NCBI GenBank assembly: GCA_019096195.1
Contig: JAGTXK010000169.1
Span: 1-64,000, forward strand
Direction of reading: 5' to 3'
Length of the DNA: 64,000 bases
Origin: Boletus sp. NGJ
Lineage: Eukaryota > Basidiomycota > Agaricomycetes > Boletales > Boletaceae
This document shows positions 10,381-34,080 of this stretch, in pieces (positions within the stretch are counted from its first letter, which is position 1; every line of letters begins with the position of its first letter). Under the pieces are notes generated by a model. It saw nothing but the letters and a program-made list of their open reading frames with translations, was not told the DNA's origin and ran no database searches. The position numbers and the translations under genes were made by a program.

Positions 10381-10467
10381 AATACTTGTGAAATGGTCCC
10401 CAGGTGGTGGAGTATGCTACGAGATGGATTAGTGCAGTACTGTATTGCTCTGCACAGTGTGTTACAC

Positions 10468-10484
10468 CTGTCACAGTGTGACAG
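10468..10484. repeat. 17-bp near-perfect palindrome near the left edge of the KDZ composite
   Basis: CTGTCACA-G-TGTGACAG lies among several CACAGTGTG-like words (10450-10530), with GGTCCCC repeated on both sides. It may be a subterminal binding site of the element. Function is inferred from position only. Confidence 0.35.
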
Positions 10485-10599
10485 AAAGGTCCCCACCTGT
10501 GCGGTCGCGGCACAGAGTGCACAGTGCTGTGCAGATTAAGTAACCTGTGTGATCCTGTACAAGTCAAGCTCAGCTGTATGCTCCTGTAGATGAGCCAAT

Positions 10600-12960
10600 G
10601 TAGTCACAATCTCCAGTAGCATACAGAGAGCCTGCTTGCAAAAGGCCCAATGTGTATGGATGACCCTGTGGTGGGCCTGAGATATATGAGGCTGGTGAGA
10701 CACAGTTGGGCCCAGCTGAGATGGGCATGCATAGAATACAGAAGGGCCTGGACATGGTGAATGAATGAGGTGTTGATAGAAATGGAAGGGCCTCAAGTGG
10801 GGTGAGTGTGACTGATAGTGATGTATATGGGGGGCCCGATTGGGCTGGTTTGACTGGGTGTGCATGCATATGTAGGGGCCAGACAGGGTGAGTGTGGTTC
10901 ACCACCAATGGGAATGAGGGCACCAGGCAGGGTGGATGTGTCCAACAACCAATTTATATGGGCACACTGGGTAGGGTGGGTGTTACCGATGATGATGTAT
11001 GTGTGGTGCCAGGGATGGTAGGTATACCTGACCTTGATGTCTGTGGGGGGACTGAGCAGGGTGGGGGGCTGAATGCTGTTATGGTTATGGAAGAGGGTAC
11101 ATCTTTTTCTCTTCCTTCACCCCCTCTCGGACTCTGGGACGACCTCTTCTTTGATGCCTCTGACTACCCAGAATTCCCCCATGACACCCACACAAGCATC
11201 CCCCATCCAGCATCCCCCTTTTAAGTGGTGCATCACTATGGCTGTAACACAGCCTGTCTTATTTCATTAGTATATGCATTTTACCTTTGATCTGATCCTA
11301 GACATTGCCTCCTTAGCTGTGTTCTCTCGCACACAGCCCAGTATTCCACTTTCTTCACTTAACTGATGCCATGATCCCTTATGGTAATATTCTAGTGTTA
11401 CCATATACGATACAAAGCCTGCCCTAAATAGGGGAGGCCTATATATATGGGCATCTGCCCTCCATGTAAACTCTAACCTAGATCTACACAACTTCCTGTG
11501 TAATCTACCAAGGTCTCGGTTCCATCTCATTTCAGACATCTTCTCCCTCTCTGGAAGCAATCACCATAGTGCTCGTGATCATTCTTCTCATCACTTTGCA
11601 CTTGTGTGGCCTTGTCACTGTTTGCTCACGTCCCTAGCCAATGGCAACACCAATGCAGACAGAGGTCTGCCCATATAAGCCCAGAACTCTGCCACTGGCA
11701 GCACAGTAAATCCAGGACTCCACCACTGGTCACTGTATAGGATAGGTCTGCACCTCCACCAGACTATGCCACCATCTTCAAAGTCCAAGACTCCACCATT
11801 GGTTGTAGAGTAGGCTCCAACTCCAAGGGAGGCTCTACGTTAAAGCTAGCTGTCGGTTCCCAGTCCTAGGAAGTTTGGGCCTAGGGAGGAATTATCACCT
11901 CAAGTCCAGCTAGTCCAGTAATCAACCAGGTGGTTGATTACTTGGGAACATGTTACTTGTTACATGGTGTAACAAATACTGATGGATACGGGGCACTGGG
12001 CAGGGAGAGTGTGACCAACAACCAAATGATATGAGGGGACTGTATAGGGTGGATATACCTAACCTTGCTGGATACAGGGGGACCGTGCAGGGCAGGGTGG
12101 GGCTGAGTGCTGATGGATACGGGGGGACCGAGTAGGGAGGGTGTGATCGACAATTGAATGATATGGGGGGACTGTGTAGGGTGGGTATACCTGACCTCAA
12201 TATATACCAGAGGACCGAGCAGGATGGGTAGAGCTAACTGCTGATGGATATGGGGTGCTGGACAGGGTGAGTATACCTGACTTCAGTGGATATGTGGGGA
12301 CTGAGCAGGGTGGGTGCGATCGACAACTGAATAATATGGGGGGACTATGTAGGGTGGATATACCTGACCTTGCTGGATACAGGAGGACTAAGCAGGATGG
12401 GTGGGGCTGAGTGCTGATGGATATGGGGGCACCGGGCAGGGAGAGTGTGACCCACCACTGAATGATACGAGGGGACTATGTAGGGTGGGTATACCTGACC
12501 TTGCTATGATATGCGGGGACTGAGCAGGGTGGGTGGGGCTGACTGCCAATGAATACAGGGTGCACTGGGCAGGGTGAGTATATCTGACCTTGGTGGATAC
12601 AAGGGGACTGAGCAGGGTGGGTGTGATTGACAACTGAATAATATGGGGGGACTGTGTAGGGTGGATATATGTGACCTCGATGTATATGAGGGGATTGAGC
12701 AGGGTGGGTGGGGCTGAGTGCCAATGGATACGGGGGCATTGGGAAGGGAGAGTGTGACTGACAACCGAATTATATGGGGGGACCAAGCAGGGTGGGTGTG
12801 ATCGACAACCGAATAATATGGTGGGTTTGTGTAGGGTGGGTATACCTGACCTCAATGTATATGAGGGGACCAAGCAGGGCGGGTGGGGCTGGATGCTGAT
12901 GGATATGGGGGTACCGGGCAGGGCGAATATATCTGACCTCAGTGGATACAGGGTGGTCTC
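10600..12960 (-). repeat. Left minisatellite array of the KDZ composite
   Basis: Diverged tandem units of about 41-47 bp. On the minus strand each has a CCCACCCTGC...GTCCCC...ATAT core followed by variant tails. The order of variants is the same as in the array at 28690-33540 on the plus strand, so the two are inverted copies. The proximal part (10570-10910) also matches 33190-33545. A solo LTR (11077-11974) interrupts it. Long open frames across it are a by-product of the repeat and not genes. Confidence 0.85.
11077..11974. repeat. Solo LTR (copy 1, 898 bp)
   Basis: Starts TGTTATGG and ends GTGTAACA. The flanks AATGC (11072-11076) and AATAC (11975-11979) are a 5-bp target duplication with one mismatch. 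It is clearly homologous to 16834-17792. It holds a TATA-like run near 11440 and tandem copies of a CCAGGACTC(T/C)(G/A)CCACTGG-like word. No internal region remains, so it is a recombination product of an LTR retrotransposon of unassigned family. Confidence 0.85.
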
Positions 12961-13439: not shown

Positions 13440-15053
13440 CAGTGACTCCAAAAAACCCTTTCCATGCTAATCCTCAATGTGGTGCATGAAGCACACCACC
13501 ACACACTGTGGGAATTCTCGCTTAGCTTTGGTGGAGTTATAAATAGTACATACTCTTGGCTACGAGATTGCTCCCTAGGTCGTGTGATTTGGTCCACAGG
13601 CTGTGGAGATATGATTAATATGAAACAGTAATACCATGGAAAGGGTTTTTTCACCTTTGAATTGAAAAGGGTATTTGGATATTATCAGTACTTGGTATAG
13701 CCTCCTTTTGCTCTAAGCACTGCCTGAATCCTCCTAGGCATGCTTTCAATCAATTTCTGACACTCCTCCACTGGTATCCTATCCCACTCCACTTGAACCC
13801 TTTTCCACAATTCATGAATTCCATTAGGGGGGTTTTCATGCTTTGCAAGGCTCCTCTTCAGACAACTCCAGAGATGTTCAATAGGGTTGAGGTCAGGAGA
13901 TTGTGCAGGCCTCACCATAGTACTGAATTCTTGCTCCTCTAGCCAGTTCTTGACCAGCCTACAGGTATGCTTGGGGTCATTGTCCTGCTGAAAGATGATG
14001 TTAGGAGGATTGAGACCATAATACTCCAGGGTTTGCTGAAGCTCATCCTTCAAATTTGAAGGTAGAGGTCCCCATCCATCCTACCATCAATCTTAGTAGC
14101 AAAGCCAACTCCCTCCCAAGTCATACAGCCCCACATCATCAGAGAACCTCCTCCAAACTTGAGGGTTCCATCCACCAGCCTATCACTAAGCCCCTCACCT
14201 GCCGTCTTCCATGCCCATTTATGCCCATCTGACCCTAGGCGATTGATTTTGGTCTCATCAGACCATATCACCTTCTTCCAATCCTCCATAGTCCAATCCT
14301 TATGTGCATAGGCAAAATCCAAGCGAGCCTTGTGATGCCTAGCAGAGAGGAGGGGACATTTGGACTTCACCACAGCTTTCATACCAGCTTTCTTCAAGTG
14401 GAGGCGGACAGTATTGGCAGAGAGGGGTTGGTTGATGATATTGGTGAGGGCTTTGGTTACTTGGACAGCATTTTCAGCTTTCCCAGAGGTGATTAGATGT
14501 TGGGCATGACAAATGTTGGTGGGAGAAAGCTTGGAAGGACGACCCCCAGGAGCTTTGGGAGAGGGCAGAACGCTCTTTGGAGCGAAGCTTGGATATGGCA
14601 GAAGGGCTGACACCAGTTTGCTTGGCAATGGCTTCACCAGAGCAGCCAGAATCAAGCAAAGAGAGAATAGTGCTTTGTTGGGGAAGGGAGAGATTTGACC
14701 ATGGTGGTGGTTGAGAATCAAGAAGTGTGTGAACTTTTTTAAGCTCAGACATGCTATTTATATGTATATCTTTGTTTGCATGAACAAACAATGGCAAATA
14801 CGATATGATTTGACTAAGATCCTAGTCATCAGTTCAAAAGTGAAAAAATCCCTTTCCATGGTATTACTGTTTCACATTGATCATATCTCCACAGCCTGTG
14901 GACCAAATCACATGACCTAGGAAGCAATCTCATAGCCAAGAGTATGTACTATTTATAACTCCACCAAAGCTAAGCGAAAGTCCCACAGTGTGTGGTGGTG
15001 CGCTTCGCGCACCACATTGAGGGTTAGCATGGAAAGGGTTTTTGGAGTCACTG
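13440..15053 (-). mobile_element. Tc1/mariner element, complete copy with broken transposase
   Basis: 1,614 bp with long terminal inverted repeats (about 215 bp) beginning CAGTGACTCC and flanked by TA (13438-13439 and 15054-15055). It belongs to the same family as the outer element at 29471-32572. The terminal repeats contain short hairpins of the form GGTGCGC...GCGCACC. It lies inside core gene A of the KDZ composite. Confidence 0.93.
13685..14752 (-). pseudogene. Tc1 transposase (DD34E), two frameshifts
   Basis: The start is MSELKKVHTLL at 14752. An N-terminal helix-turn-helix region (SLLDSGCSGEAIAKQTGVS) is followed by the Tc1 domain. Catalytic signatures are WSDETKIN, FQQDNDPKH and SPDLNPIEHLW, and the end is GGYTKY. 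One frame change lies near 14570, just before the GGRPSKLSP motif. Another lies near 14050, where ...LYLQI runs into a one-base deletion before KDELQQTL. The sister copy in the outer element at 29471-32572 has LYLQILKDEL uninterrupted. The protein would be about 340 residues. Confidence 0.9.
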
Positions 15054-16076
15054 TACATTCAATAATCTCCATGGCCTGAGCCTGCCTCCTCTGTCTTGCC
15101 TCATGACCGAATAGGACCCAAGGATTACATTGTTCCTTGGCTGGTTGATGTTTTTGAATCAATGGACTGGTCTGCATTTTGGGTGTTGCCAGTTGCTGGG
15201 GGTGCTTTGCCCCCACAGCCTCTTGTGAAGCTGTGGCTGGAATATGGCCATGGCCCTTGGGGATGAATGGAGGAGGTGTGGGGATGTGTGGCAACCCAAA
15301 GTCACCTGTTGGATGAAATGGTAAAGAGGTCAGGAAGTTTGTGCCTAATGAGAGTTGAGGGTGAATGCCTGGCATTGACGTTAAATGCTTTCATGTGATG
15401 AGGGGTGTGGTTGACATATGTTCATGTGCACCAAAGACTTGGCCTTCGGCCATTGGGATGAATAGAGGAGGAATAGGGATACACAGAGACTGTGCGTCAC
15501 TATTTGGTTGAAAGGTTGGAGGGGTGGAAAAGTGGGTTCCAAAAAAATCATCAGGTTGAAGGCATGGCATCAATGTTGAATGCTGGGATGTGAAGGGAGG
15601 TGGTACCCATATGCCAGTGAAATTGTTGATGTTGGTAGTTATTGAAGAAGGTTGATAACAATGAAATGGAGGTGGGGTTGGAATGTGCCACTCCACCATT
15701 GTGTAAATCATATCCAGATCTAAAATAATGTGAATTACAGATCCAATCCCAGGACAATCACATACCGACAGAGTCAGACTCAGTATAAACCAAGACTAAT
15801 GTTTCTTCACTTGTAACTGAGGATCTATCTGCTTTGAACAATAATAAATATTTTCCTAGACCGAGCATAGTCACACCTATCTGGGATCTAGAATCAAACT
15901 TGCTTTTGCATGGTGGGTTGGTGCTGAAACAGAGAAAAGATAGAATGGTGGTGAAGGTTAGGTAAAGGACTTTAAATTGGATATGGGGATCCTTCAGTTA
16001 CTAGTGGAATTTACAGATACTGGCCATGGTGGACAGTGTGGAAAATAACACAATCAGTCAAAATTGCTGAACAATA

Positions 16077-19071
16077 ATGGCAGAGAGTGAATCTGTGGAA
16101 AGTTCCAATTGGTATTTTCGTACTAAAGCTCTCCATGCCCCACTCCTCTCTTTTCAATTCTTTCTCCCATTTCAATCCATTATGCCCGATGCTATTCAAT
16201 CCATCATCAATGATGCTACTGCCACCATTTGCAACATTCTGAAGGCCAAGGTACTCAGGATGACCAAACAAGGCACTGCACAGGGGAATGCATGGCACCA
16301 GGCCATCACCAAGATTAAAGGGCACCTGGTACATGATCGTATTTCTATTCCACTGAGCAGGCAATAAAGCATGTTCTAGGAAAAGATTTGGGACAATACA
16401 ACTTCAGCTGAGAGCATCCCTCTCCTGGCTGTTGCCTGTGACATCAGCCTCCTGGAATATGCAAATGGCCATTGGCCAGACTGGCGCAAGATTCTGACCC
16501 ATGACATCTCTGGTCTATCTGACCACCCATGGCTCAAGGTTGGCCAAGTTAATACCAGGAATGCTGTGGCCAGATCCTTAGCAAATGTCCCTACCCCAGG
16601 AATTCCCAACAAACCCCAGAATGAGAAGATACAGTAGGCCAAATTCCAGTCAATGGGGATGGCAACATGGAAAACTCTCAGCTGGGGCCAAAGACAGTTG
16701 GAGTAAGGAATGGTAAGGCTCGGAAGATTGATCCCGCAGATAGCAAGATAAAGTCACGCAGACAATCAAGACACCGTGGCGATGGCTTAGGAGCATCTAC
16801 CAGCAGCCAGCCAAGGGGATGCTCCATGGGAAGTGTTACAGTTACAGAAGGGGGTACATCTTTTTCTCTCCCTTCTCCTCCTCCCAGACTCTGGGACGAC
16901 CTGTTCTTTGACACCTCTGACTACCTGGGATTCCCCCACAATGCCCACATAAGCATCACCCCATCCAGAACTCCCTTTCTGAGTGATGCACCGCTATAGC
17001 TGTAACATAGCCCTCTCTATTTCACCTTCTATGTATTTCATCTCTGATATGATTATAAACATTGCCTCCTTGGCTATGTTCTCTTGTGCATAGCCCAGTA
17101 TTCCACCTTCCTCATTCGATTTATGACATGATCCATTATGATAATACTTATGATTACCATATACAATACGAAGCCTGCCCTGAATAGGGAAGGCCTATTT
17201 ATATGGGTGTCCACCCTTCATGTAAATCCAAACCTAGATCTACACAACTTCTCATGTAATCTACCCACATCTTGGTCCCACTTCACCTCAGAAGCCTGCA
17301 CCCACTCTGGAGGTGATCACCACAGTGCTTGTAATTGTCTTCCTCATCACTTCACACTTGTGTGGCCTTGTTGCCGTTCGCTTGCGTCACTAGCCAATAG
17401 CAACACCAATGCAGACAGAGGTCTGCCTGTGTAAGCCCAGGACTCTGCCACTGGCACCCACCTAAGCCCAGGACTCCACCACTGGCAGCACAGTAAATCC
17501 AGGACTCTGCCACTGGTACCCGTATTGGTCAGGACTCTGCCACTGACCCCTGTATAGGATAGGTCTGCCCTTCCTTTGGGTTGCACCACCATCCTCAAAG
17601 TCTGAGACTCCAACATCAGTTGTAGAGTAGCAGCTCCAACCCCAAGGGAGGCTCTACGTTAAAGCTAGCTGTCGGTCCCCAGTCCGAGGAACCATTGGGC
17701 CTTGGGAGGTATTTTCCCCTCAAGTCCAGCTAGTCCAGTAATCACACAGGGTTGATTACTTGGGAATGTGTTACTTGTTACATGGCATAACAGGAAGGAC
17801 TTGTCTACCATCATCTGCAGCAGATGTCCCAGGAGTGGAGAACACCAAGCAGGCATGTAACACCTGCAACCACTGGGGTTTTACCTGCACCCCAAATCCT
17901 GGACATGCCTGCCTGGAATGCCACCAATGCAAGGTTCGATGTTCCCTGACCAGAAAGCATCAACAGTCCCAATCCTGCATTCACTGATTCCCTTCACCTG
18001 ACACCACACAAACACGGCAGGGATGCAGTCAATCACAAGGTTGGCAACCTCAGTCAAAATCTCGACCAGCTTTCCCAGCACACCCCACTGCCCCAACTGC
18101 TCCCCATGCAAATGCCCCCTGCAGCAATACTGCCCCAATCCTCAAAACCACAGATTCCTCACTCAGTGAACTGGCTGCCAACTTGAAAACTGGCCCCCTA
18201 ACAAAGAAGGTCAAAAGATTCAAGCCAGCCTAGGGTAAGTTCAAATAGTGCATTTAATTGTCTCCAGATTTATACTCCTACCCCATAGTTCTCAACACTG
18301 TGGTGATACCAAGGGTGACCAAGTCAACCCCATTCACCAAAGAAGCCACACAATCAGCTGTACTGGAGACAAGCAACCCTTGTAACTACCACAAGTTGTT
18401 GAAGGCATACCAGGAACTTCAGGACAGCCACAAGCAGCTTTTGGTCAGGTCATGGCTGAGCTTCATGACAAGGCTGGCAGGTACAGGGGCAAGACAGTTC
18501 ATCATGTGTACACACTAATGTGCTACCCATTTGAATGAATTCCCCCACAGGCCGGTTCCATGGAGAAAGTCTCCAAGCCATCCATTGTGGCATTCATCCT
18601 GAATGTCACCAAGTCAGTTACCCCCTACTCACCCTCCCCCCAAGCACTGTCTTCAGCAGAACGAACACCACCCCTCACTCCCCCGGTAGCCACCCCAAAT
18701 GTCTTTCGTCCTAATGTCCCCCCATCTCCTTTTCTCCAGGGTCCTCAGCACCTCAATTGATTGCCCCCTTGCCCCAGCGAGCTTTGCCACCACACAGTCA
18801 GGCTGCACATACGGTATCATGGGGTAGTGGCCTGAGCACCATCCCAGACTTGGGTTGGGGACCTCCATTTCTTTTTCAAATAGGGACAGCATTGTTCAAC
18901 TGCCAACTGCCTCAACTCTGGCCTCCACTGTCCCTCCTACCACCCATAGCCAGCATCCAAGAGGTAGAAGGATTGGGTGATTCTGAAGCGGCGGTTGAAA
19001 CAGAAAGTGTGGCTGAGGACAAGATGGGCAGGAAAGCAGGTGAGAGTGGGCTGGGCTCTGACCTTACTTAG
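16077..19071 (+). pseudogene. KDZ-composite gene B: Cys-cluster protein (broken)
   Basis: The first exon-like frame (16077-16367) is followed by further coding sequence (16370-16640, with WDNTTSAESIPLLAVACD) and a basic KSRRQSRHRGDG stretch near 16760. After the solo LTR at 16834-17792 come a Cys-rich motif (17850-17960; C-x2-C-x6-C-x7-C-x2-C-x2-C-x3-C, like fungal binuclear clusters) and a helical segment (18320-18480). In-frame stops at 16365 and 16636 and the LTR make it non-functional. Proteins with this order (acidic helical N-terminus, basic linker, Cys cluster) are, from memory, multicopy in mushroom genomes. DNA binding is inferred from the Cys spacing only. Confidence 0.55.
16834..17792. 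repeat. Solo LTR (copy 2, 959 bp)
   Basis: Starts TGTTACAG and ends GCATAACA, flanked by a perfect 5-bp duplication GGAAG (16829-16833 and 17793-17797). It is homologous to 11077-11974. The extra length fits more copies of a CCAGGACTCTGCCACTGG-like tandem word (17430-17550). It interrupts gene B. No internal retroelement sequence remains. Confidence 0.9.
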
Positions 19072-19240: not shown

Positions 19241-21965
19241 TTACGTGCCCTTCCAGATTGATGTGGCATTGCACCTTTGTCCATATTGATGAATTAGATA
19301 GGATTCAAATGGTGGGAATGTGACAGTACTGTCAGGTAAAGTGCACATCTCAATGGATGTTCCTAGAGTGCAAGCACAGCACCTCGGCTTTTGATTCCTT
19401 GGTTTTGCACCACCATTGGTGTCTGCTATGCTGACCTCAGGAAGAGTCTTTGGCATTTTCATCGCCAATTTCAATTTTTTGGGATGGAGTTCCAGTGCTA
19501 AATTTATTATGAATGTCCCTGGCCTACCCAAGCAGAAATCCAGCCACCTACCATCCCTGCCATCATTGACTGGAGCTGGTCTCTTCTTTGTAGGCTTTGG
19601 ACAAGGATTGCCCCAGACCATTGATGTCTCATCCATTGATTCAACTGCTTCAGCATGATCTTCTGGCTATCCTATGGAGTGAGCAGTGGGTGCATTCACC
19701 TTGGTAATCAGCCAACATTCAATGATGTCTTTGATCCGAGTCACCTGATCAGACCTCCCAGCACTTGGGACATTCCTGGATTGTGTCCCTCGAGTATTCA
19801 TTGTCCCTGTGATCTCCCAAGTTCCTGATTTGACAATTTTTGAAACTGATTCTCCAACAAAGTCCATGATGAAAAGCATCATTCAAAAGTGTGTCACTCA
19901 CCTTTTCTTGGCAGTCCAACCTTAAACAGTTGTTGAGGGGGTTGTGATGTGTCTCTCTCTGATCTTGGAGTTATTCTCAACTGCTTCATAGCTGCACATA
20001 AAGATGCTGATAATCAATGGTTGAATGTGACCAGAATCTTGGACCCTACCATCTCTTGAAGATCTGACCTTGATCAGTCTTGGTTGGTGCTCTTTGTCAC
20101 TCTGGACTATTCTGTCACCACCATCCTCCACACTGGGATGCCTTGCCATTATTCCTTCATTGTGTAACTTGAGTTGAATTTCCAGAATGTGTGGGTAACC
20201 ACATACCTTGTTTATGTGACCCCATCCTAAATGCAACAGACTTCTAAGGTAACTCACCGACGTCTTTGTCGCTGTTGGATCAATTGGTGTATGAGACTGA
20301 TGGGCTCCATATCTCCCTGTGCTTTTCATTTCTGATCGCAGAGTTAAACTGCCTGCCATGTTCCTCCTGAGAATCAGATTGATTGCTGCCACTGTCAACC
20401 TGTCCCTGGTCTTGAGCCAGAAGCTGATCTGTCGGTCTTGGCTGTGCATTCTGGGATCTCCACAGTCATTTTACCTGGGTCAGGTCTTCATCTCCACTCT
20501 CTGCTGGATCCTGCAGCTGATTCTTCCCATCCAGAACATTCCATTGTTGCTTGCAAATGAATTCAAGAAAGCACCTTGTATCACTTGTGTTCATGTGGCT
20601 TGGATCATCTGAAAAGGAAAAATCATCTGGAAGATGTTCCGACCTGAACAGGTCATCCTGGAACTCACCCAGCCTTTTTAAGGGTGCTAAAATCTTTGGG
20701 ATTTTGCATATTAAACCTGAATACTTTGAGCATTGGCATGGAGGTCAGATATGAAGGGGACTTGCAGTAGTGCAAGGTGAGAAAGCTCCTGACCATGTTT
20801 TGCATATCAGCTTGGCTGTGGCCAGTAAAATCGGGGATCCAGATGGTTCCATCCAACCAGGTTACTGCATTCACCGCATCATCACCATGTTTCTACCTGG
20901 GCTTCCTCCCCTTTTTGGCTTCTTCCAGGATCACATCCTCACTGTCATCTTCACCCTCCCCACCATCCCTTTCCAGATCAAAACATTGGCCAAGATACCT
21001 ATTCCACTCCCTCTGAATGGTGTCCAAGCCCTCAAAGCCCAGGCCATTTTCAATGGCTGCATTGAAGTCAAACCTTTTTGCCATCAGATGGCTGCCAGAA
21101 TCCAAATGGCTAGAGGTGACCTACAGAGTGGAGAATATTTCACCTTTTTCATCCTTGAATCTGGTTAGTATGGCCATCCAGATTCCTCCCCTCTTTCACA
21201 TTTCCTGGGCAAACTGCTTCATCACAGAAGCTACACCCCAGGTTGCAAACCTGTATAACCTGTAGCATCTTCAATATCATCCTCTAAAAATTACTTACTG
21301 TGCCTTTGCTTCAGTCAAGGCACCTCATAAATTCCATACCATGGCAGTCAACTCAGCATTCTCGATCTCATCAGGAGAGAGACCCTTCATCACCTCTGCC
21401 AGCATGGACTGGTACTGCCGAAACATCACCGAGGACCCTGGTCAGGCACTGAACCATTCCTCTATGGTCCTCTTGATTTTGTCTTTGTGCTGCTTCCAGA
21501 TCACAGACTGCGCTGTCCATGTTGCACTGAGGGCGATGCCATCCTTCTTCTTTCCTATCCATCCTTGTTTGTGCATCCATTTCAGATATGACTTTCTGAA
21601 GTTTGGAATCAATTCTTCAAGGCATGGTAAATCCTTCTCACCTGAAGTTTATGGTCCCACATAGCATGCTCCAAAGTCAGATTTTCTCTGAGACACCATA
21701 TCTTGCCAACAAGAGCCCTCCAGATTGTTTGTCATTTCTTACCTCTTGCTGCCTTCCATGAAGGCCATTCTTCTTAAAGAATGAGTAGTACAGTGTCGGA
21801 TATGCCAGTGCCTTCATGCTGTGTTTCAATGCAAGATGGCCCTGCCTCATTTTCAGCAGAGATATCCTTGGGTTGGGATTCCCCTTCCTTTATCCCATTT
21901 TCTGAACCATTATCGGTGGTTTCTTGATACTCGGACTCAGCGTAATCCTGCAAGTAGTCAGACAT
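19241..21965 (-). pseudogene. KDZ-composite gene C: acidic KDZ-neighbourhood protein (broken)
   Basis: On the minus strand it starts with the acidic MSDYLQDYAESEYQE. It continues through a helical WTAQSVIWKQHKDKIKR segment near 21550, a GLSPDEIENAELTAMVWNL segment near 21400 and an RFDFNAAIENGLGF segment near 21080. Further on are an acidic DGGEGEDDSED stretch near 20960, a WIPDFTGHSQADMQ segment near 20830 and a Ser/Asn-rich tail to about 19241. The order resembles a large family of uncharacterised multicopy proteins near KDZ transposases in Agaricomycetes (recognised from memory). Many stops and frame changes show decay. Function unknown. Confidence 0.5.
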
Positions 21966-22780
21966 AGCAGAGGGTTGACTCAGAGTACAGTATGACCCTT
22001 CACCTTTCATTTGATATTGGGTTTACAACCATCGTGTATGCCAAGTAGCCAAGGTTACACCATAATGGCAAAACCACCGTGAAAACAAGCGAATGCATGT
22101 ACCTTGGCCTAGTGCCCTGAAGTTAACAGATGGCCTTACATACATGATGTAATGCCAGGCTACCGAGCACCCAAATTGGTCATATAACACTGGCAATGCC
22201 AGGTAAGTGGACCCAACTCATTTCTATACATAGTTGGTGTCAGATGGAGTTCCAAAGCAGCATGCAGTGATGGCTGGGCTATCTGTGCATATTCCATTTC
22301 GACTTCTGCCCATCACCACTACATAAGGGAAAGAGATGACTCCAGGCCCCATGTAGCCAAAGCCATCAGATCATAATATGGTATATCCAACATGCCTGGA
22401 TCTGAAAAACTACCTGAGGAGGAGGCAACCTCCCCACAGGTGACTAACCCTGTTATGGGTTGATTATTCTATTTTTCCCTGCCATCCTCCAAAAGCAGCT
22501 CTAAAATAGCCAGAGATAGAGTGGTCAAAGGATTAACATTACATTATGCCTTTGCAGATGTGGCAGCTAAGGTTACCCAATCACAGTAATGCTGCAGGTG
22601 CAGGGTCAAAGATCTGACATCCATGGACTCGGCTCGAACTAGCCAAGATGACACACTATAGTGTCTGAAAAACCATGTGGGTGAACAGAGGTGTGACTGA
22701 AGTATGTTATGGCTCACAGTGCGAAATGAGCTGTATCTGTTTGGATGCTACTGTACCAGTAGCCTTCCAACCATCTAAGA

Positions 22781-25700
22781 ATGCCAAAGAATCCCTCCAA
22801 ACAAAGGATTAACTCTGTGAGAGTTACTCATACCACATGGGTTACCAAAAATACTATAAGGGGGCCCAAGATGACTCTTGTCAGATTGGATGCTATCAAG
22901 GCTGCCACTTCCATGACTCCATCGCAATCAGTTCAATCTACCCCAAGCAAGCCTGGGCCACCCAGCTCTCAGTTTACCTTTGGTACTGACATGTATGTTT
23001 TTTGTACATTTGGAGTTATTAGTCTGGTGATATCTGGCCCAGGCAAAATGCAGCCGATATAGAATTAGATGAGATACATCCAATCTGATTACCTCTGAAA
23101 AATGTAACTGTCTGTTATTTTTGGTGAAGATGCTGATTCATATGGCCATAGATGTCAAATGATTATCTCTGGGACTGGATTTCTCACAAACAAGAATTTT
23201 TGCAAGCTTTGTTGGACATGGAAGCACCATCTCAATCCTGAGACTGTGGTACAGTACCTTCACCTTGCTGGATGATTTTATCCAGGATAATTTGGAGTGT
23301 GGAACCTTGGGAATGAACTATTATAGCAAGCTCCGAAGAATAACCTCCAATGTGTTTTCCCACATTATGCCTGTATGTTCCAGATTTGTTTCTTGCAAAT
23401 CACCTGCTCAGATAGGGCCAGAATCACTACCAAGAGTTGCTTCAGATCGCCAGGCAGTGGAGACTGCTCAAGCTGCCTAAGTGGAATGGCTTTGGCCACT
23501 AGTCCGGGGGCCCAACCAAGGGAGATCTTGCTCTTTTTTGCCCTGCCTGTCCACAATCTGGAATAAATTTAAAGTTGTCAGTAACTGAGCTCTCTGGGTT
23601 AGAACCTATGTGAAAGAGGAAGCCAAATGACCAAATCTGGCTCATGAATGGCCTTGGCTATATGATAACTCAGAAAGACTATGATGGGTATTTGAAGGAG
23701 ACACACCACCCCCTGAAGGTAATTGTACTGACCAGGAATTCCCTGTGACTGATCTCTGACTGAAGACCAGTGGTCAAGTTGCAACAATCACCAAGCCATG
23801 AACCAAGCGAATGCCAGCCAAGGTAAGTTGGACGCCACCAGGATTGGAGGTTCGGCATGTGCTTGGCATGAATGCTTTGTGCCACACTCAGTGGTTGACT
23901 TTCAGAAGAGGGGAGAGGTAACCAATTTCCTAGGAAGATTATACTGTCACTCAGAACCTCGCAGGCAGGTTAACATGGACTATTCATTTGTCAATGCTCT
24001 CTTCCACAACATGGACAATATTTCATGGGTCATAAGTTTCTATGATATTAATTGCTCTTACATGAAGAAGCTCCGAGCCTGACTAAGTAAGAACAGGTTC
24101 ATCTGGCTGCCATCAAATCTGGATATTGTACCTGGTATTGGAATGTGGCATATGCATGGCCATCAATCCTCATGTTTTGCTCAGTATACCCCCTTGTTTA
24201 TTTCTGACATGGGTTGGGTTAATGGTGAGATCATCAAGACATTGTGGTCCAATTTGAACATTGTGTCAGGATCTACATGTGGGATGTCCTCCCCCCATCG
24301 GCAGGAGCTGCTCAATTTCCAGATGAATGATTCCAATTTCATCAAAATGATCTGAATGTGTACATTCTTACATTGATGTGTTCCTTGGTGGATGCTTCCT
24401 ATGCCAGCTGGAAGTCTGGCCAGGAAGCTCAAGGCTGCTCAGAAATCCTCAGCATCAGCTCAGGAGACATTCTGTGACCTCAATGCAGGAGTTCCAGACA
24501 TTCAAAGACAACAGTGGCTGAGCCAGAAGTGGAAGGCCATGCAGAAACGACTCGGTGATCCATTGGCAATGGATATATTCGAGGTACAGCTAGAAAAAGG
24601 TATGTCAGAAGAGGAGATGCACTCACAGAGAACTCTTGTTTATACTTCCACAAGTATAGCACCCACCATAAAGGCCATAGAGATTGAAATGCTTGAGGCT
24701 GTCACAAAGACACCTGGCATGCACCACAGAGCAGCAACATGGCTCTCCAAGGGACTGAAACTCAAGGAGGTGCAGATCTCACTTTGAAGAGACATGAGAC
24801 GGATGGGATCAAGGGCTACTAATCTTCAATGGTTGGTGCTTACTTGGCAAGCTGATCGGCTAGCTACCGAACTTTCACATTTTTTCACTAAAGTGTCCAC
24901 CTTTATCTGCTATAAAGATGACAATGGAGTGCTATCTGATATATCGGACAGGAAGAGTAACGTCAGAGATGAAGAAGTGGCCGACAACCTCAGTGGTAAA
25001 TGACCTGATGAGGCAAAGCTGCCATTACCATCCAACTTGGGTCTGGATTAATGCATGGCCCTAGGGGCTGACCACCTTGTTCAATAGGAGCTGAAACTTC
25101 ATGCTGGCCAAGCAAATGATGCCTTGCATGAGATACGGCTGGTGTTGGCAGACAAGGTGGTGTTGTTCCACACCAAAGTTCAGCATGCTGCCAGTCATGC
25201 AACGACCACCTGGGCCTGGGGAAAAGTGAATTCTGTGGAAGCAGTCATCAGTTGGCATGTCGCCATATATCAGAGATGCAGATCTGCCATGGTACATCTT
25301 TTGGCAGATGATGACATGATGGCTAGATATGAGATGTTGAAGGATGAGGACTTTAAGGTTAGCACTGCGGTAACTGAGCCAAATGCCCACAATCAGAACT
25401 CAAACAAGCTGGCCTGGTTCTGATCAATGGATATACCAAGAGACATCAAGATGAATGACTGGATGTCTAAATGTATGTTCCACATCTAGCTAAATCTTCC
25501 CACCAATCTTATGGAATCCACAATTTACCGGGTACATTGGTTGCGTGCAAAAGCCACAATGGATATGTGGAAAGAGGAGAAAGAGCTGCTGATGGCAGAG
25601 CTTGAATGGACCATCAATTACTTCAATCACAAATCTCAGTGATGGAAAGAGCAGGTGGCCTGCAGTCAGAAAAATGATGACCAAGGAAAAACATGCTATG

Positions 25701-25973: not shown

Positions 25974-26720
25974 ATGGAGACATTTCCTGATGACACACCC
26001 ATTACCTCACTCCACATGATGCTTTGGTATCAGAAGTGCCGGATTGAAGTGGCCATGGCATGTCTTGCCCAACTTCCAGCAGAAAAATGGCTGGCAACTT
26101 GGTATGATAACTTGTCCATGGAGTCAGTATGTTTCCCACCTTACACATGACAAATGGGCATCCTGATCACATCACATTGCAGAATACTTTAAGCTTTTTC
26201 TTAGCCCTGTATGCACCCATGCAAACAGTGCCCCCACCGACCCCATCCTGCACCCAAATCATGAAAGTCAAAGCCAGCCCAGAAAATCTGAAATCAGACA
26301 TCATCTGCAGAATTCAAGATATACACATTGATGGCATCACTTGAACCCTAGAGCTCCTGCCAAACTGGCAGCCAACCACAGGTATGCCCACCTATGGATT
26401 CCAGCATTCATGGTGGGTGAATGACATACCCTCCTATTATGAGGAGGCCTTATAATTTTTTCTCTCTGAGTCATATGAGAGGGCAGATGCCTTCTTTCAG
26501 GTAAGTACATCAATGATGCCATCATCCTTGGCTCACATGTCACAAGGATTGTTGGCCAACAGATGAGTCTCCATTGGACAAGGCCCACAATGCTCAGCTG
26601 GACACACTGGAGGCCAGTATTTTGGCTGAGCTTCAGCAAAACATTATCGAGCTGGAGCAGACTGAGGCCACTATGATAGAGTCCTGGGTGGATATAGTTC
26701 AGCTGCAGAAATTATATTAG
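25974..26720 (+). pseudogene. KDZ-composite gene E: small conserved protein with C-terminal coiled coil (broken)
   Basis: ATG at 25974 begins METFPDDTPITSLHMML. The frame then runs through a Pro-rich stretch (PMQTVPPPTPSC, near 26220), ASPENLKSDIICRIQDIHI near 26290, and WVNDIPSYYEEAL near 26430. A GTAAGT intron donor follows near 26500. The last exon encodes the coiled-coil-like ASILAELQQNIIELEQTEA and ends with TAG at 26720. A few one-base frame changes interrupt it. No known domain was recognised. It lies between the transposase and the TET/JBP gene, so it may be an accessory factor of the element (inference). Confidence 0.45.
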
Positions 26721-26821
26721 AAGCATAGGTAACATGTGCTCAGCTGGTTATCAAAGGAAACATATTGCTATTTAAATATTTACCCTTTGTGACCAAATCT
26801 TTAAAGCCTATTTGCCGTTCA

Positions 26822-27829
26822 TTATCCTCCCCATGTTGAATATTGCATGTAATTACAGTAGGAAAGATCCATATATTCATGGACACTGTCCCACATGTAA
26901 TAAGAGAGTACCACCCATTCCCCCTCTGCCTGACCAACCCCATGTTCTAACATTTGCCCTGAGAGTGTGATCACCATGCCTGGATCATACCAAACCCAAT
27001 ACATGATGGTCGGAATCACAAAATCAAGTCTGATGTAGCTGCTGATTGAAACAAGAAGGTCCAACCACTGAGGTCTACCATTTATGTCAATATGAAATGG
27101 ACTAGCTCGGTTTGCCATGACAGACACGACGCTGTAAACAGACGACCACAAAGAGAATACCTCCCTCAAGTCAGGGTCATCCTGCACAGCCGCCCACTTG
27201 CTGAGTCTGACCATCACCTCCAGACCCATCTCATACATTTTGGAATGCATGATGGCAACCAATGCTGCTAGGAGGGCAGCATGTTCTTGCATGGCAACTA
27301 ACCACTTCCAGGTTCCATTTTTGCCCCAGCTAGCCTTCAGCAGTGTGGAGACCTTCAGTGGCCCATTTGTCTCCTATTGGCCGAAATCCGGTCAATGAAG
27401 GAGGGAGAGAAAAAAGCTACCAACATTTCTACCCTGTTGAAACCATGCCAGAGACAGGTTGAGAGCCCCCTGCAGCATTACCCTGGGGTGAAAGTTTGCT
27501 GAGGAGGTTTGCCATGCCTGAGAAGAGCTCTCTGTCACACTGTGTGAAAGTGGCTGTGACAAAAGTGGCAGCTGTTCCCAGATATATTGCTGGTTTGAAC
27601 TGGAAGTCAAAATGGTGGAGGACTTTGTGACAGACTGACTCACTTGATTAGGCTCACTTCTTGCCCAAGATAAATACCAAAGTAAGATGTAGCCTGAACG
27701 ATCAGTGATAATGGCAAGTTCAGTGAGTTCCCTATAACCCTGAATATCTGCATCAGATGGTTCTGTTAATTTGCCCCTCCGCTTTGTCCGTTCACCAAGC
27801 TGAATGATGTCAATATCACTGATTGTCAC
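26822..27829 (-). pseudogene. TET/JBP-family 2-oxoglutarate Fe(II) dioxygenase (predicted 5mC oxidase), probably inactive
   Basis: The core exon (27292-26822, 156 codons, open) shows the double-stranded beta-helix signatures of fungal TET/JBP enzymes. These are MANRASPFHIDINGRPQW with the Fe-binding HxD (about 27094-27086), YDPGMVITLSG, the distal His in LEHGV (26944), and the closing YYMWDSVHEY. An upstream part (27829-27392) has the typical LTELAIITDRSGYILLWYL entry. The family oxidises 5-methylcytosine or thymine in DNA and is amplified with KDZ transposons in mushrooms. The residue I align with the 2-oxoglutarate-binding Arg (TET2 R1896 position) is Trp here (TGG, 26917-26915), as is the Arg of the usual YYMRD. 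Both fit CGG-to-TGG CpG decay. Frame changes upstream also suggest a pseudogene. Confidence 0.75.
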
Positions 27830-28689
27830 TGGGTGGGCATTAGTGGAGAATTATCAAACTGGCAAGAGCATACCCTTGTTCTGGTATGCCCTTACAATGA
27901 TACCAATGATCTGGTCTGCCTCACAAACAGTCTGCCTCAGAATTTGTGGGTGGGGTACACATTTCTGCAAAATGTCCGGAGTGGTCTGCAAGGCTACCTG
28001 AAATCTGGAAACCATATAGTTGGCTAATTTATCAGTGTAGGATATGGCCCAATCATCAGGAATTTCAGAGGAGTTCATGGAGGAGACAAAAGAAGATCTG
28101 TGGAAGTTGGACAAAGCATGATTTATGGCAGATATAGGTCAACATGTTCCCATGGAAACTGATGTTTCAAATCTTAATCTGGGTATGGGCCCATGCGAGC
28201 AGTCCGACCTGTGTTCATCCTAGCTAGAACAAATGCATTGGCTGCTGGATCCTTCTAAAATAGATATATACAGGGAACATCAGGATGGGCCTGTGAATAA
28301 CATGGCATCTGAAACTGAAGTCACTTTTACATTGCCTGCTTGGCGCCCATGATGTATGCCAGATGTGTGATGGGTAACCCTTGCAGGTGGACCACTCAAG
28401 CATAATTCCTGATGCACATGAATGGTACACAAGGTCACAAACCCCAGCCAGGCCTATCATTGCACTAGGTGTGTTAACAAAGGTCTGTAATATAACCTTG
28501 TTGGTCTCCTTGCCTTGAGATTAGTCACATTCACACTGCTCAATCCAAGCGTATGCTTTGTGCCAAATGATACTCATCCAGTGCAGTCACCTTATTTGCA
28601 TCCGCATTCAGCACCACCCACCCTGCCTGGTGCTCCCATACCCAGCAGCATTCAGTCAAACCTGCCCTGCTCAGTCCCCTGATATACTA
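27830..28689. other. Region between the TET/JBP gene and the right array
   Basis: Short overlapping frames on both strands (for example 27854-28114 minus, 86 codons). They may be 5' exons or promoter of the oxygenase gene, but nothing was recognised. The sequence is CpG-poor. Confidence 0.35.
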
Positions 28690-29470
28690 TAAGGTTGGCG
28701 ATGCCTACTCTGCCCAGTGCCCCTGTACCCATCAGCACTCAGCCCCACCCTTCCTGCTCGGTCCCCCCATATTTAGCGAGGTCAGGTATACACACCCTGC
28801 TCAGTCCACCCATATCCACTGAAGTCAGGTATATCCACCCTGCTTGGTCCCCCTGTATACATCGAGGTCAGATATACCCACCCTGCCTGGTGCCCCCATA
28901 TCCATCAGCAGTCAGCCCTACCCACCCTACTTCGGTCCCCCCATATACATCAAGGTCAGGTATACCCACCCTACACAGTCCCCCTGTATCATTTGATTAT
29001 CAATCACACCCTCCCTTCCCAGTGCCCCCATATCCATCGGCAGTCAGCCCCACCCGCCCTACACAGTCCCCTCATATCATTTGGTTGTCAGTCACACTCT
29101 TCCTGCCTGGTGCCTCTATATCCATTGGCACTCAGCTCCACCCACCCTGCTCAGTCCCCTCATATACATTGAGGTCATGTATACCCACCCTACACAGTCC
29201 CCCTGTATCATTTGATTATCAATCACACCCTCCCTTCCCAGTGCCCCCATATCCATCGGCAGTCAGCCCCACCCGCCCTACACAGTCCCCTCATATCATT
29301 TGGTTGTCAGTCACACTCTCCCTGCCCGGTGCCCCTATATCCATTGGCACTCAGCCCCACCCACCCTGCTCAGTCCCCTCATATACATTGAGGTCATGTA
29401 TACCCACCCTACACAGTCCCCCCATATTATTCAGTTGTTGATCACATCCACCCTGCTCGGTCTCCACATA
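28690..29470 (+). repeat. Right minisatellite array, proximal part
   Basis: Tandem units of about 44 bp with a CCCACCCTGCTCAGTCCCC-like core. There is also a clear higher-order period of 219 bp (five units): the block starting at 28962 is repeated almost exactly from 29181. It is the inverted counterpart of 10600-12960. The array continues after the Tc1 nest at 32573. The 248-codon open frame across it is a by-product. Confidence 0.88.
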
Positions 29471-30513
29471 CAGTGATCTCCAAAACTGTTGCAATGTTTA
29501 ACCCTGATGTGGTGCACACTGCGTGCACCACAAACACCCGTGGGAATTACACTTTGCTTTGGTGGGAACGAACAAAGTACACACTCTTGGCTACAATCCG
29601 GCCTCTGGATCATGTGATTTGGATTAGAGGCTGTGGAGTTATGTCCATTTCAAAACAGCAATACCATTGCAACAGTTTTGCATCTCTTAATATGAAGTGG
29701 GTATTAGTACTTGGTATAGCCTCCTTTTGCCTTGAGCACTGCCTCAACCCTCCTAGGCATGCTTTCAATTAACGTCTGACACTCCTCAAGTGGTATCCCC
29801 TCCCATTCCACCTGAACTCTCTCCCATAACTCATGAATTCCACTAGAAGGTTGTTCTTGATCTGCTAGCCTTCTTTTGAGGTGACCCCAGAGATGTTCAA
29901 TGGGGTTGAGGTCAGGAGACTGTGCTGGCCATATCATAGTCCCAAACTCCTGCTCTCCAAGCCATTCTTTCGCCTTTTTGCAAGTATGCTTGGGGTCATT
30001 GTCTTGCTGAAAGATCATGTTAGGAGGATCTAGACCATAATACTGCAGAGTATTCAGCAGCTCATCCTTCAAAATCTGAAGGTAAAGGTCTCCATCCATC
30101 CTACCATCAATCTTGGTAGCATAGCCAACTCCCTGCCAAGTCATACACCCCCACATCATAAGAGAACCTCCTCCAAACTTCAAGGTCCCTTCAACCAATC
30201 TATCATTAAGCCCTTCACCTGCTTTTTTCCAACCCACTTTCGCCCAGCTGACCCTAGGTGATTGATTTTAGTCTCATCAGACCATACTACCTTCTTCCAG
30301 TCCTCTATGGTCCAATCCTTATGAGCATAGGCAAAGTCCAAGCAAGCCTTGCGATGCCTAGCTGATAGAAGGGGGTGTTTAGACTTTACCACAGCCTTCA
30401 TACCAGTTTTTCTCAAGTGCCGATGTACTGTGGAGGTAGAGAGGGGTTGGTTGACCACATTGGTGAGAGCCTTGGTCACCTGGACAGCATTTTCTGCCTT
30501 TCCAGATGAAATA

Positions 30514-32112
30514 CAGTGGCTCAAAAAAGTGTCCCAATGTTTGGCTATTTTGCAAAGACTTGACATTTGCAAAAGAACCAAAGGGTATTAGCCCTAGCCC
30601 TTGCTAAGCCATTGATAGCCCTAATCCTTGCCCTGAAGATGAGCCCTTAGCCATATAATTTGGTTGTCATGGCACTGAGATATAGCCATATTAAAGTGAT
30701 ATGTCATTGGGACACTTTTTTGAGCAACATTTCTATTCTTCAATTTAGTACTTTGTATGCCCTCCCTTTGCTTTTATCACTGCCTCTAGTCCTCTAGGCA
30801 TACTCTCTATCAATCCTTGACACTCCTCAACCTCTATCTTCCCCAACTCCACTTCAATTCTCTCCCAAAGCTCCCATACTCCTTTTGGTGGTGTTGTATA
30901 GCTATTGAGTTTTTTTTTGAGGATTTGCCAGAGATGTTCAATGGGATTAAGGTCTGGAGATTGTGCTGGCCAGTCAAGAAGCTTGATCTCTTGAGATTCC
31001 AGCCACTCCTTGGCTCTTTTAGAGGTGTGCTTGGGGTCATTATCTTGTTGAAAGATAATGCTCTCTTCAGGAATTCCAGATTTTTCCATGGAAGGAAGCA
31101 GATTATCCTCCAAAATGGGGACATACTGCTCAGCATTCATCCTCCCTTCAACCTCTGCAAGAATCCCCACTCCACTCCAACTCATGCATCCCCAAACCAT
31201 CAAGGAACCTCCTCCAAACTTTACTGTTCCCTGAACTTCCTTGTCTTGCAAAGACTTTCCTGCCAATTTCCATACATACTTCCTTCCATCTGACCCAATC
31301 CTGTTGATCTTGGTTTCATCTGACCATATAACCCTAGTCCAGTCCTCCACAGCCCAATGTTGGTGCTTGAGAGCAAAGGCTAGCCTATGTTGCCTATGCT
31401 TCACAGACAAGAGTGGCTTCTTTTTCTTGACTACAGCCTTGAGAGATGCAGACTTGAGAACATTCCTAACAGTTTGAGCAGAGACAGGAGAAGAGAGAGC
31501 AGAATTGATGAGATGGGTAGCCTGGACAGCATTTTCAACTTTGCCAGAGGTAATACTAGAGACAATTCTCCTTTTATCAGTAGGAGAAAGTTTAGAAGGA
31601 CATCCTAATTTGATGTTTTCCTTGCCTGGGTGGATCTCCTTGATAACCCTGGCCACAGTAGACTTCCCCAGACCAGTTTGGAATGATATTTGCCTAGTAG
31701 AAAGGCCAGATTCAGAGAGAGAAAGAATATTGGCTCTAGCAGAGGAGGGAGTGGATTTCATAATGAAGTAGGGTTGGCTGAATGGTATCTCTGCTCTTTA
31801 TACCATTTGGAGTTATGTAAGTGACATAATCAGACAGGGTTGAAGCACAGCATCCATCAGAACCTTATGTTGTTTACTAAATGATAGTTGATAATATCAG
31901 GGTCAAATAAGTGTCCCAATGACATATTCTTTTAATATGGCTATAACTCAGTACCATGACAACCAACTCACATGACTAAGGGCTCATCTTCAGGGCAAGG
32001 ATTAGGGCTATCAATGGCCCAGCAAGGATTAGAGCTAATGCCTTTTGGTTCTTTTGCAAATGTCAAGTCTTTGCAAAATAGTCAAACATTGGGACACTTT
32101 TTTGAGCCACTG
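30514..32112 (-). mobile_element. Inner Tc1/mariner element, complete and apparently intact
   Basis: 1,599 bp with terminal inverted repeats beginning CAGTGGCTCAAAAAAGTGTC, flanked by the TA duplication (30512-30513 and 32113-32114). A second copy of the GTGTCCCAAT word lies about 200 bp in from each end (30710-30720; 31910-31920), a typical double transposase-site layout. The transposase is full length. The same family is at 1-6883. Confidence 0.95.
30745..31761 (-). CDS. Tc1/mariner transposase, intact (338 aa)
   Basis: A single uninterrupted frame from MKSTPSSARANIL to GGHTKY. An N-terminal pair of helix-turn-helix motifs (LSESGLSTRQISFQTGLGKS and the region after PSKLSPTDKRR) should bind the terminal repeats. 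The catalytic DD34E triad is in WSDETKIN, FQQDNDPKH and PIEHLW. Full length for the family is about 340 residues. No stops or frameshifts are visible, so the enzyme could be active. It acts by cut-and-paste into TA sites. It is the only intact transposase in the window and also the innermost insertion, which fits a recent arrival. Confidence 0.93.
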   Translation of the reverse strand: MKSTPSSARANILSLSESGLSTRQISFQTGLGKSTVARVIKEIHPGKENIKLGCPSKLSPTDKRRIVSSITSGKVENAVQATHLINSALSSPVSAQTVRNVLKSASLKAVVKKKKPLLSVKHRQHRLAFALKHQHWAVEDWTRVIWSDETKINRIGSDGRKYVWKLAGKSLQDKEVQGTVKFGGGSLMVWGCMSWSGVGILAEVEGRMNAEQYVPILEDNLLPSMEKSGIPEESIIFQQDNDPKHTSKRAKEWLESQEIKLLDWPAQSPDLNPIEHLWQILKKKLNSYTTPPKGVWELWERIEVELGKIEVEECQGLIESMPRGLEAVIKAKGGHTKY

Positions 32113-32572
32113 TAAGACAAATGGCATGACGAAAATTAATAGGAGAAAGCTTAGATGGGCAACCTCCAGCAGACTTCTGAAGCTCAGAACGCTCTTTGGA
32201 GCAGAGCCTGGATATGGTAGAAGCATGGAGACCAGTGGTGGCAGCAATAGAATGAGCTGACTGGCCAGCATCAAGCATAGAGAGAATGGTGTTTTTCTGA
32301 GTAGAAGAGATGGATCTCATGATGATGTGGTTGGAAATAAAGAAGTGTGTGAACTATTTCAAACTCAGACATAATATTTGTATGTGTATCTTTGTTTGTA
32401 TAACCAAACATTGCCACTTATGATGATATTTCAACAAGATTGCACATTCTCTACTAAAAGATGCAAAACTGTTGCAATGGTATTGCTGTTTTGAAATAGA
32501 CATAATTCCACAGCCTCTGATCCAAATCACATGATCCAGAGGCCAGATTGTAGCCAAGAGTGTGTACTTTGT

Positions 32573-33860
32573 CCCTGCATCCATCAGCACTCAGCCCCAC
32601 CCACCCTGCTCAGTCCCCTTGTATACATTGAGGTCACATATACCCACTCCTACACAGTCCCACCATATTATTCAGTTGTCGATTGCACCCACCCTGCTTG
32701 GTCCCCACATATCCACTGAGGTCAGGTATACTCACCCTGCCCGGTGACCCCTGTATCCATCAGCACTCAGCCCCACCCACCCTGCTCAGTCCCCTCATAT
32801 ACATCAAGGTCATGTATACCCACCCTACACAGCCCCCCTGTATTATTTGGTTGTCGATCACACCCACCCTGCTTGGTCCCCATGTATCCACTGAGGTCAG
32901 GTATACTCACCCTGCCTAGTGCCCCTGCATTCATCAGCACTCAGCCCCACCCTCCCTGCTCGATCCCCCTGTATCCAGCAAGGTCAGGTATATCCACCCT
33001 ATACAGTCCCCTCATATCATTCGGTTGCTGGTCACACTCTCCCTGCCCGGTGCCCCGTATCCTCAGCATCAGCCCCCCACCCTGCTCAGTCCCCCCACAG
33101 ACATCGAGGTCAGGCATACCTACCATTCCTGACACCACGCATACGTTGTCATCAGTAACACCCACCCTACCCAGTGCCCCATATAAATCAGTTGTCAGAC
33201 ATATCCACCCTGCCCAGTGCCCTTGTTTCCCATTGGTGGTGAACTGCACTCACCCTGTCTGGCCCCTACGTATGCATGCACACCCAGTCAAACCAGCCCA
33301 ATTGGGCCCCCATATACATCACTGTCAGTCACACTCACCCCACTCTGGAGCCCTTCCGTTTCTATCAACACCTCATTCATTCACCATGTCCAGGCCCTTC
33401 CGTATTCTATGCATGCCCATCTCAGCCGGGCCCGACCATGTCTTACCAGCCTCATATATCTCGGGCCCACCACAGGGTCATCTGTACACATTGGGCCTTT
33501 TGCAAGCAGGCTCTCCGTATGCTATGGGGGATTGTGACTACATTATGTGCTACCCTGCTCGGTCTCGTCATATCCATCAAGGTCAGTGACACTCACACCA
33601 CTCAGTGTGGGCATATATATTGGCACTTGGTCACCTCCGCCCTACTTGGTCCCACCATATACATCGAGGTCAGTCACCCTCATACTGCTCAGTGTGGTCG
33701 TATACATCGGCCCTTGGTCACTCCCAACCTGCCTGGTCTCATCATATACATCAAGGTCAGCCATGCTCACACTGCTCAGTCCTGTCGTATATATCAGCAC
33801 TTGATCACCCCCACTCTGCTCAGTCCCATCATATGCATTGACCTCAATCTTACTCACCCC
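32573..33860 (+). repeat. Right minisatellite array, distal part
   Basis: Continuation of the array interrupted by the Tc1 nest. From 32573 to 33540 it mirrors, in inverted orientation and the same variant order, 12960 down to 10570. From 33545 to 33860 the units change to a related set with (A/G)TATACATCAAGGTCAG words. The open frames of 281 and 259 codons here are repeat by-products. Confidence 0.85.
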
Positions 33861-34080
33861 ACCAGGGGCTGTTTTATATCTATCGATCCTTCATCTAGTT
33901 ACCCTTTCCAGGCCCTTCCATATCCTACATATATGCATGTTAGGCAGGCCTGGGTGTGTCTTACACATCTCATATATCTCAGGCCTGTCACGGTATCATC
34001 TGTACATGTCGGGTGTTTTGCAAGCAGGCTCACCATATGCTATGGGCATATTTGACTGCATCATATGTGTAGATTTTATA
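33861..34080 (+). repeat. Duplicated end segment at the right edge of the KDZ composite
   Basis: 33896-34060 is a diverged second copy of 33380-33545 (CCAGGCCCTTCC..., CTCATATATCTC..., TTTTGCAAGCAGGCTC..., CATATGCTATGGG). The first copy has its inverted counterpart at 10580-10760. The segment marks the probable right limit of the element. Confidence 0.6.

Follow-up and report, generated by a model that had tools for sequence, protein, structure and literature searches.

The window analysed here is a 64,000-nucleotide stretch of the genome of Boletus sp. NGJ (contig JAGTXK010000169.1, positions 1 to 64,000). Between positions 10592 and 34067 it carries what is very probably a dead copy of a large cut-and-paste KDZ transposon, Kyakuja-like by the length of its target duplication and by the type of its TET/JBP gene. 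The element measures ~23 kb and has a perfect 7-bp target duplication, TGTAGAT, immediately outside both ends (10585-10591 and 34068-34074). Its left tip reads GAGCC (10592-10596, plus strand), and its outer right tip reads CATAT, which is of the CACAT type (34063-34067, minus strand; ATATG on the plus strand). An earlier sequence-only reading had let the unit begin at 10381, which is wrong; the stretch 10381-10591 found no genome match among those listed (40 of 599 candidates scored). The same reading had put the size without later insertions at about 17 kb, and coordinate subtraction indeed leaves ~16.9 kb.

Decayed genes lie between the two arms of the element, and two of them, the KDZ transposase and TET/JBP genes that the sequence-only reading had proposed, are identified by Pfam domains. 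The decayed KDZ transposase gene (23163-25420, plus strand, outer limits approximate) contains PF18758 at 23765-24337, together with the two blocks YDINC (at 24041) and GEIIKTLWSNLN (at 24224). The domain scores 48.7 bits in the window frame, 72.8 bits in the frame of a sister copy on contig C73 (contigs other than that of the window are designated by C and a number) and 82.4 bits at C5:23963-24337, against a curated cut-off of 26.6. A CxC2 match (PF18803) at 23163-23477 is sub-threshold, with 14.1 bits against a cut-off of 27. The TET/JBP dioxygenase domain, open over 183 codons, lies on the minus strand at 26825-27373, with PF12851 at 26927-27319 and the catalytic HxD motif within HIDINGRPQWLD at 27059-27094. 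Glycine at +5 and aspartate at +11 from the histidine of HxD reproduce the AG-type spacing, for which Kojima (2025, PMC12730594) gives HxD, Gly331 and Asp337 of CcTET as the characteristic residues. The nearest solved TET relatives are the PDB entries of Coprinopsis CcTet and others of the same kind (7vpn, 2.8e-16; 8jkk).

The four other genes are represented by the probes A, B, D and E, and are supported by the recurrence of these probes in other copies. They comprise a decayed gene for a proline-rich protein (A, 15442-15855, minus strand), gene B (16461-18254, plus strand), which is interrupted by an insertion, D (19244-19666, minus strand) and the decayed E (21612-22022, minus strand). A further conserved stretch, X (26340-26711, minus strand), follows TET on the same strand and is either a separate gene or a later TET exon. 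The frames of A, B, D and E matched nothing in Pfam, and B and E had no PDB match up to an E-value of 1. Gene B carries a cysteine cluster at 17856-17942 with the spacing C-x2-C-x6-C-x8-C-x2-C-x6-C in both the window and the C73 frames, which fits the Zn2Cys6 consensus C-x2-C-x6-C-x5-12-C-x2-C-x6-8-C. Since its C73 frame matched no Pfam family up to an E-value of 0.5, we call it Zn2Cys6-like only.

The genes are enclosed by two diverged tandem arrays whose units measure 43/44 bp; one occupies 10.78-12.95 kb and the other, in inverted orientation, 28.6-33.36 kb, so that the observation of one array present twice in opposite orientation is borne out. The left arm consists of a ~190-bp terminal stretch followed by the first array units (10597-11076), with the remainder of the array at 11976-12950, all on the plus strand. 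The right array has an inner portion at 28600-29470 and an outer portion that leads into the inner right arm (32569-33544), both on the minus strand. The sequence-only reading had also seen the same order of unit variants on the two sides. Unit by unit this holds only for the outer nine units, which correspond one to one (9/9 best matches in order). The collinearity of the whole arms, 3.89, exceeds the maximum of 2.89 in 500 shuffles; beyond the outer seven units the value is still 2.92 against a shuffle maximum of 2.70 (500 shuffles). When the inner right array (28.6-29.5 kb) is compared with the left one, however, collinearity is 1.99 and within the shuffles (mean 1.81, maximum 2.23). The outer 485 bp of the window arms are 91.6% identical, with 0.2% transversions. 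Because the outer nine units pair and the inner right array does not, the arms are inverted repeats proper in their outer part and, further in, arrays that resemble each other but evolve separately.

We searched the genome (32.8 Mb in 141 contigs, the window being the first 64 kb of one of them) using the outermost sequence of both sides as queries, 234 bases from the left arm and 213 bases from the right end. With 40 candidates scored per search the resulting count is a lower bound, and more ends may exist: at least 60 loci were found, representing at least 54 distinct ends. Tips could be read at 53 of the 54 (52 without any tip condition, plus C33:33054), while C37:101519 is truncated. They fall into 26 GAGCC-like tips (GAGCC, AAGCC, GAGTC) and 27 CACAT-like tips (CACAT, CATAT, TACAT, TATAT), and all 11 copies with two readable ends have one of each kind.

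The 7-bp flanks of these 11 copies are identical in five (C5, C33, C37, C101 and C133 at 177-205 kb), agree at 6 of 7 bases in two (C68 and C73 at 483-497 kb) and at 5 of 7 in C56, so that target duplications agree at 5-7 bases in eight copies. Agreement is 4/7 in C73 (499-545 kb) and C3, and 1/7 in C114. Summed over the 11 copies, 61 of 77 positions agree, a value reached by none of 100,000 permutations. Given that wrong pairings of ends (n=110) also reach up to 4/7, the two copies with 4/7 are no evidence alone. The eighth flanking base differs in 8 of 9 copies compared and agrees in one; the duplication is therefore 7 bp long.

Array units were present in 45 of 46 end loci examined, as well as in the window, with a spacing of 43 and 44 bp; the exception is the end L043 on C87. 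This set leaves out five ends (L027, L048, L059, L071 and L074). In most ends the array begins ~180-230 bp from the tip, and 3 to 34 units occur in the stretch examined. In six copies, transversions between the two arms amount to 0.5-1% of the outer 400 bp, and the likeness of the arms drops inward; among eight pairs compared, the terminal 186 bp are only 81% (C3) and 85% (C37) alike in two.

To locate the genes in the other copies, we used protein probes for A, B, D, E and X, taken from frames of the window or of C73, and Pfam models for KDZ and TET. Hits were assigned to the contigs by hand, with fragment hits merged or left out; of 88 KDZ matches in the genome, only those beside other probes, plus a few others, were entered. 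The order and strand A(-) B(+) D(-) E(-) KDZ(+) X(-) TET/JBP(-) were identical at ten loci (C3, C5, C33, C56, C68, C73 at 499-545 kb, C97, C128 and two on C133), and further loci carry subsets of the probes in the same order. Deviations were seen on C27, where part of X is inverted, on C101, which has no X or TET match, and on C17, where A and B are turned against the remaining probes and probably come from a neighbouring copy. Several copies share paired inverted ends, 7-bp duplications and one and the same gene order. The arrays and all the genes, KDZ and TET/JBP as well as the other four, therefore most likely travelled together as a single mobile unit, as the sequence-only reading had suggested and as the search of the same genome which it recommended now supports.

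A region so full of nested insertions, with a C73 copy that is interrupted likewise, could also be thought of as a transposon graveyard: a small KDZ-TET element would by chance have ended up among unrelated minisatellites and host genes. We regard this as extremely improbable because all seven probes keep their order at ten loci, the tips are paired and have target duplications, and the distance from tip to array is similar. It should be noted that three contig pairs share the flanks of element ends (C56/C128, C35/C50 and C127/C59), and these pairs either represent two haplotypes assembled separately or go back to segmental duplication. Common flanks of this kind would also be expected if the whole were a segmental or subtelomeric duplication block spread by recombination and not a transposon, but the 11 two-ended copies stand in different flanks with different 7-bp sequences, and this explanation is very improbable.

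The sequence-only reading had named arrays or outer genes without the KDZ core as a case that would speak against it. Such cases do occur, and we read them as remnants of the mobile unit. C114:429605-444037 has both ends together with A, B and D, shows no E, KDZ, X or TET match and no matching target duplication, and is read as an internal-deletion derivative. One end with A, B and D is found on C35 and C50, which are duplicates of each other, and on C82, where the stretch runs into the contig end. Among the probe and Pfam matches listed, none adjoins eight further ends (C114:549 kb, C127, C59, C81:45 kb, C75, C87, C97:28.8 kb and C35:514 kb).

Several observations weigh against our interpretation of the locus. 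Three of the 11 two-ended copies lack a convincing target duplication, and the copies read are broken. The ten loci with full gene order are not all independent, as C56 and C128 have common flanks, and the two C133 loci (36-49 and 56-70 kb) score identically for several probes; moreover, some D matches are weak (E-values of 1.5e-4 on C133 and 4.9e-4 on C68). In C133 (177-205 kb) and C3, the arrays resemble ends belonging to other elements more than they resemble each other, and in C114 the two likenesses are about equal. The depletion of CpG in the arms did not correlate with left-right divergence across nine elements (rho 0.13, p 0.73). The codon periodicity of substitutions between the window and C73, or C101, gave no usable signal, decay being dominant, and a frame-by-frame substitution score gave mere hints of minus-strand genes; thus, the gene calls for A, B, D, E and X are founded on the conservation of their proteins from copy to copy. 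Finally, the 5'-CA..TG-3' termini without terminal inverted repeats (TIRs) that are stated for two Kyakuja families of Laccaria, Kyakuja-1_LB and -2_LB (PMC12730594), are not found here, so the element is classed as Kyakuja-like KDZ and not as Kyakuja proper.

The right end of the element is double, and the right array is not the single continuous array that had been assumed. An arm of the element's own subfamily runs to its CACAT tip (33545-33549, minus strand; ATGTG on the plus strand), which is now internal, and is followed up to 34067 by the array and arm of a second subfamily, with seven array units and a terminal stretch at 33550-34062 (minus strand) before the outer tip. In a junction search, own-subfamily ends stopped and array copies started within a few bases of 33549/33550 (the array copies there or later). 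No match spanned the junction among the genome matches listed, which therefore give no evidence that the composite exists a second time in the genome. Most likely, an element of the own subfamily first landed in an arm of the other one, and the outer tip was used in a later jump. The apposition of an own-subfamily tip and a second-subfamily array at 33549/33550 would equally be produced by recombination: the element would have landed in the arm of a second-subfamily resident, to which the duplication TGTAGAT would belong, and a deletion between two GAGCC arms, acting as direct repeats, would have removed the remainder of the resident, likewise leaving matching outer duplications. We consider this unlikely, though not far-fetched; the left arm is of the own subfamily right to its tip (AATGTAGTCACAATC), and the crossover would therefore have to fall at or within the last bases.

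The closest kin of the window (C73, C37, C26 and C27) have a CACAT-like tip on the A side or a GAGCC-like tip on the TET side. The window has the opposite polarity, which it shares with most other copies (23 loci one way, 7 the other). A flip of the interior by recombination between the arms would explain this difference.

Later insertions interrupt the element at several places. The left arm contains 899 bp foreign to the element (11077-11975), and gene B is split at 16834-17792 by an insertion that is 77% identical to the one in the left arm and absent from C73. Both belong to an insertion family of ~900-950 bp with more than 30 further genome matches listed. A Tc1/mariner-like insertion with a TA duplication (13440-15053, minus strand) is likewise absent from the C73 copy. 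The right arm holds two Tc1-like elements, one nested in the other (29471-32568, minus strand, limits approximate). At 30748-31797, a Tc1-like transposase frame is open over 350 codons and 97.6% identical to a copy inside C73; on account of both features, this Tc1-like element was probably active not long ago. The sister copy on C73 itself contains a 19.7-kb insertion (C73:511730-531392). At 514569-515087 this insertion matches KDZ with 141.7 bits, about twice the 70.5 bits that the sister copy's own KDZ reaches, and the insertion therefore probably holds another, nested KDZ family.

Outside the element, a ~1-kb repeat at 34649-35645, with degenerate hexamer stretches (GGATTA nearby, at 35369-35403), also occurs inside the C73 copy (C73:504197-505192), reversed and 89% identical. 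On the left, a 480-bp direct repeat pair (109-588 and 6040-6519, 98% identical) delimits what looks like a ~6.4-kb retrotransposon with two long terminal repeats (109-6519). A phosphatidylserine decarboxylase-like gene (8923-9990) adjoins the element; its CpG is not depleted and it makes a useful control region.

The window and the C73 copy differ by 1,254 substitutions over 13,037 aligned bases (9.6%), 92.1% of which are transitions. Of these 1,155 transitions, 645 (56%) fall in dinucleotides that read CG, TG or CA in both copies, with TG standing against CA in 478 cases. The observed/expected ratio of CpG is 0.16 in the element core, compared to 1.18 in the phosphatidylserine decarboxylase region. 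Because transitions dominate and CpG is depleted, the decay fits loss by deamination of methylated CpG, with additional transitions outside CpG. The TET gene thus did not save the window and C73 copies from decay. Moreover, an ancestral array unit with about three CpG sites is suggested by three positions, at which CG, TG or CA stands in 95%, 97% and 81% of the 762 unit alignments.

Some features of the element have counterparts in other transposons. Maize Spm/CACTA has subterminal repeats bound by an element protein and ends controlled by methylation, with an unrelated transposase and no TET gene. Kyakuja elements, the TET-bearing KDZ transposons already known from Agaricomycetes, combine KDZ, an AG-type TET/JBP gene and 7-bp target duplications (Kojima 2025, PMC12730594), as does the Boletus element, which differs from Kyakuja-1_LB and -2_LB in its inverted arms, 43/44-bp arrays, CACAT/GAGCC tips and four further conserved genes; the terms 'tandem repeat' and 'subterminal' do not occur in the main text of that paper. 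According to the same source, Zisupton is also of the KDZ group and has inverted terminal repeats, but its target duplication is 8 bp long, whereas in Boletus the eighth base agrees in only one of the nine copies. KDZ1 of Cryptococcus (PMC12810828) is a large KDZ element too, of ~11 kb with TIRs of 241 bp; unlike the Boletus element it has 8-bp target duplications and a CxC1 domain, and neither TET nor arrays are mentioned in the text consulted. Long inverted ends with tandem subterminal repeats are described for Muta1 and related Mutator-like elements of Aedes (PMC5225508), although these belong to another superfamily, with 9-15-bp repeats and 8-9-bp duplications, and the likeness is one of design only.

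As to the parts themselves, CxC2 is reported to precede an intact KDZ in Pleurotus (PMC7641404), KDZ TIR motifs are mentioned for Marasmius, and PMC8290104 refers KDZ and Plavaka TIR motifs to its supplement. Array-bearing arms, two kinds of tip and conserved partner genes were not found in the open-licence literature, taken without supplements. This agrees with the earlier statement that the flanks and extra genes are not well described as parts of one unit, and we rate the Boletus element, which combines several genes with inverted arms that bear arrays and with two unlike tips, as a new form of KDZ transposon.

The mechanism that we propose is derived from the sequence. The KDZ protein would act as a DDE-type cut-and-paste transposase that pairs one GAGCC-type with one CACAT-type end and inserts with a 7-bp stagger. 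The arrays would be putative subterminal binding sites at which the transposase, perhaps along with the zinc-cluster-like gene B protein, is gathered. The TET enzyme may have oxidised 5-methylcytosine on the element, at about three CpG per array unit, and so opposed its silencing; removal of methylation by TET has been proposed in general terms by Kojima (PMC12730594), who notes that it is not experimentally validated. It is also conceivable that TET/JBP makes a regulatory mark (5-hydroxymethylcytosine or a further product) or acts genome-wide, instead of freeing the element from methylation. Kojima (PMC12730594) discusses both readings, and oxidised methylcytosines are also reported on Coprinopsis retrotransposons; nothing in our data separates the two, and we give a regulatory role a real chance, though one short of even.

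Returning to the removal of methylation, a more far-reaching and rather doubtful idea is that the element demethylated itself, with its arrays, a DNA-binding protein and the eraser working together as a single switch. The gene B protein and the KDZ transposase would bind tens of CpG-bearing 43/44-bp units per arm, and only unmethylated units would be bound, TET being recruited to the arms in order to clear them. The unequal tips might enforce correct pairing of the ends, the near-identical arms might recombine and flip the interior, and arms of different subfamilies could combine into larger composites.

TET/JBP genes have multiplied in mushrooms with KDZ transposons, and few complete structures are described in the literature covered. 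Here, the ends, the target duplication, the gene order and the conserved partner genes of such an element are defined from many copies in one genome, which makes testable both the targets of a transposon-borne TET enzyme and the role of array-bearing arms.

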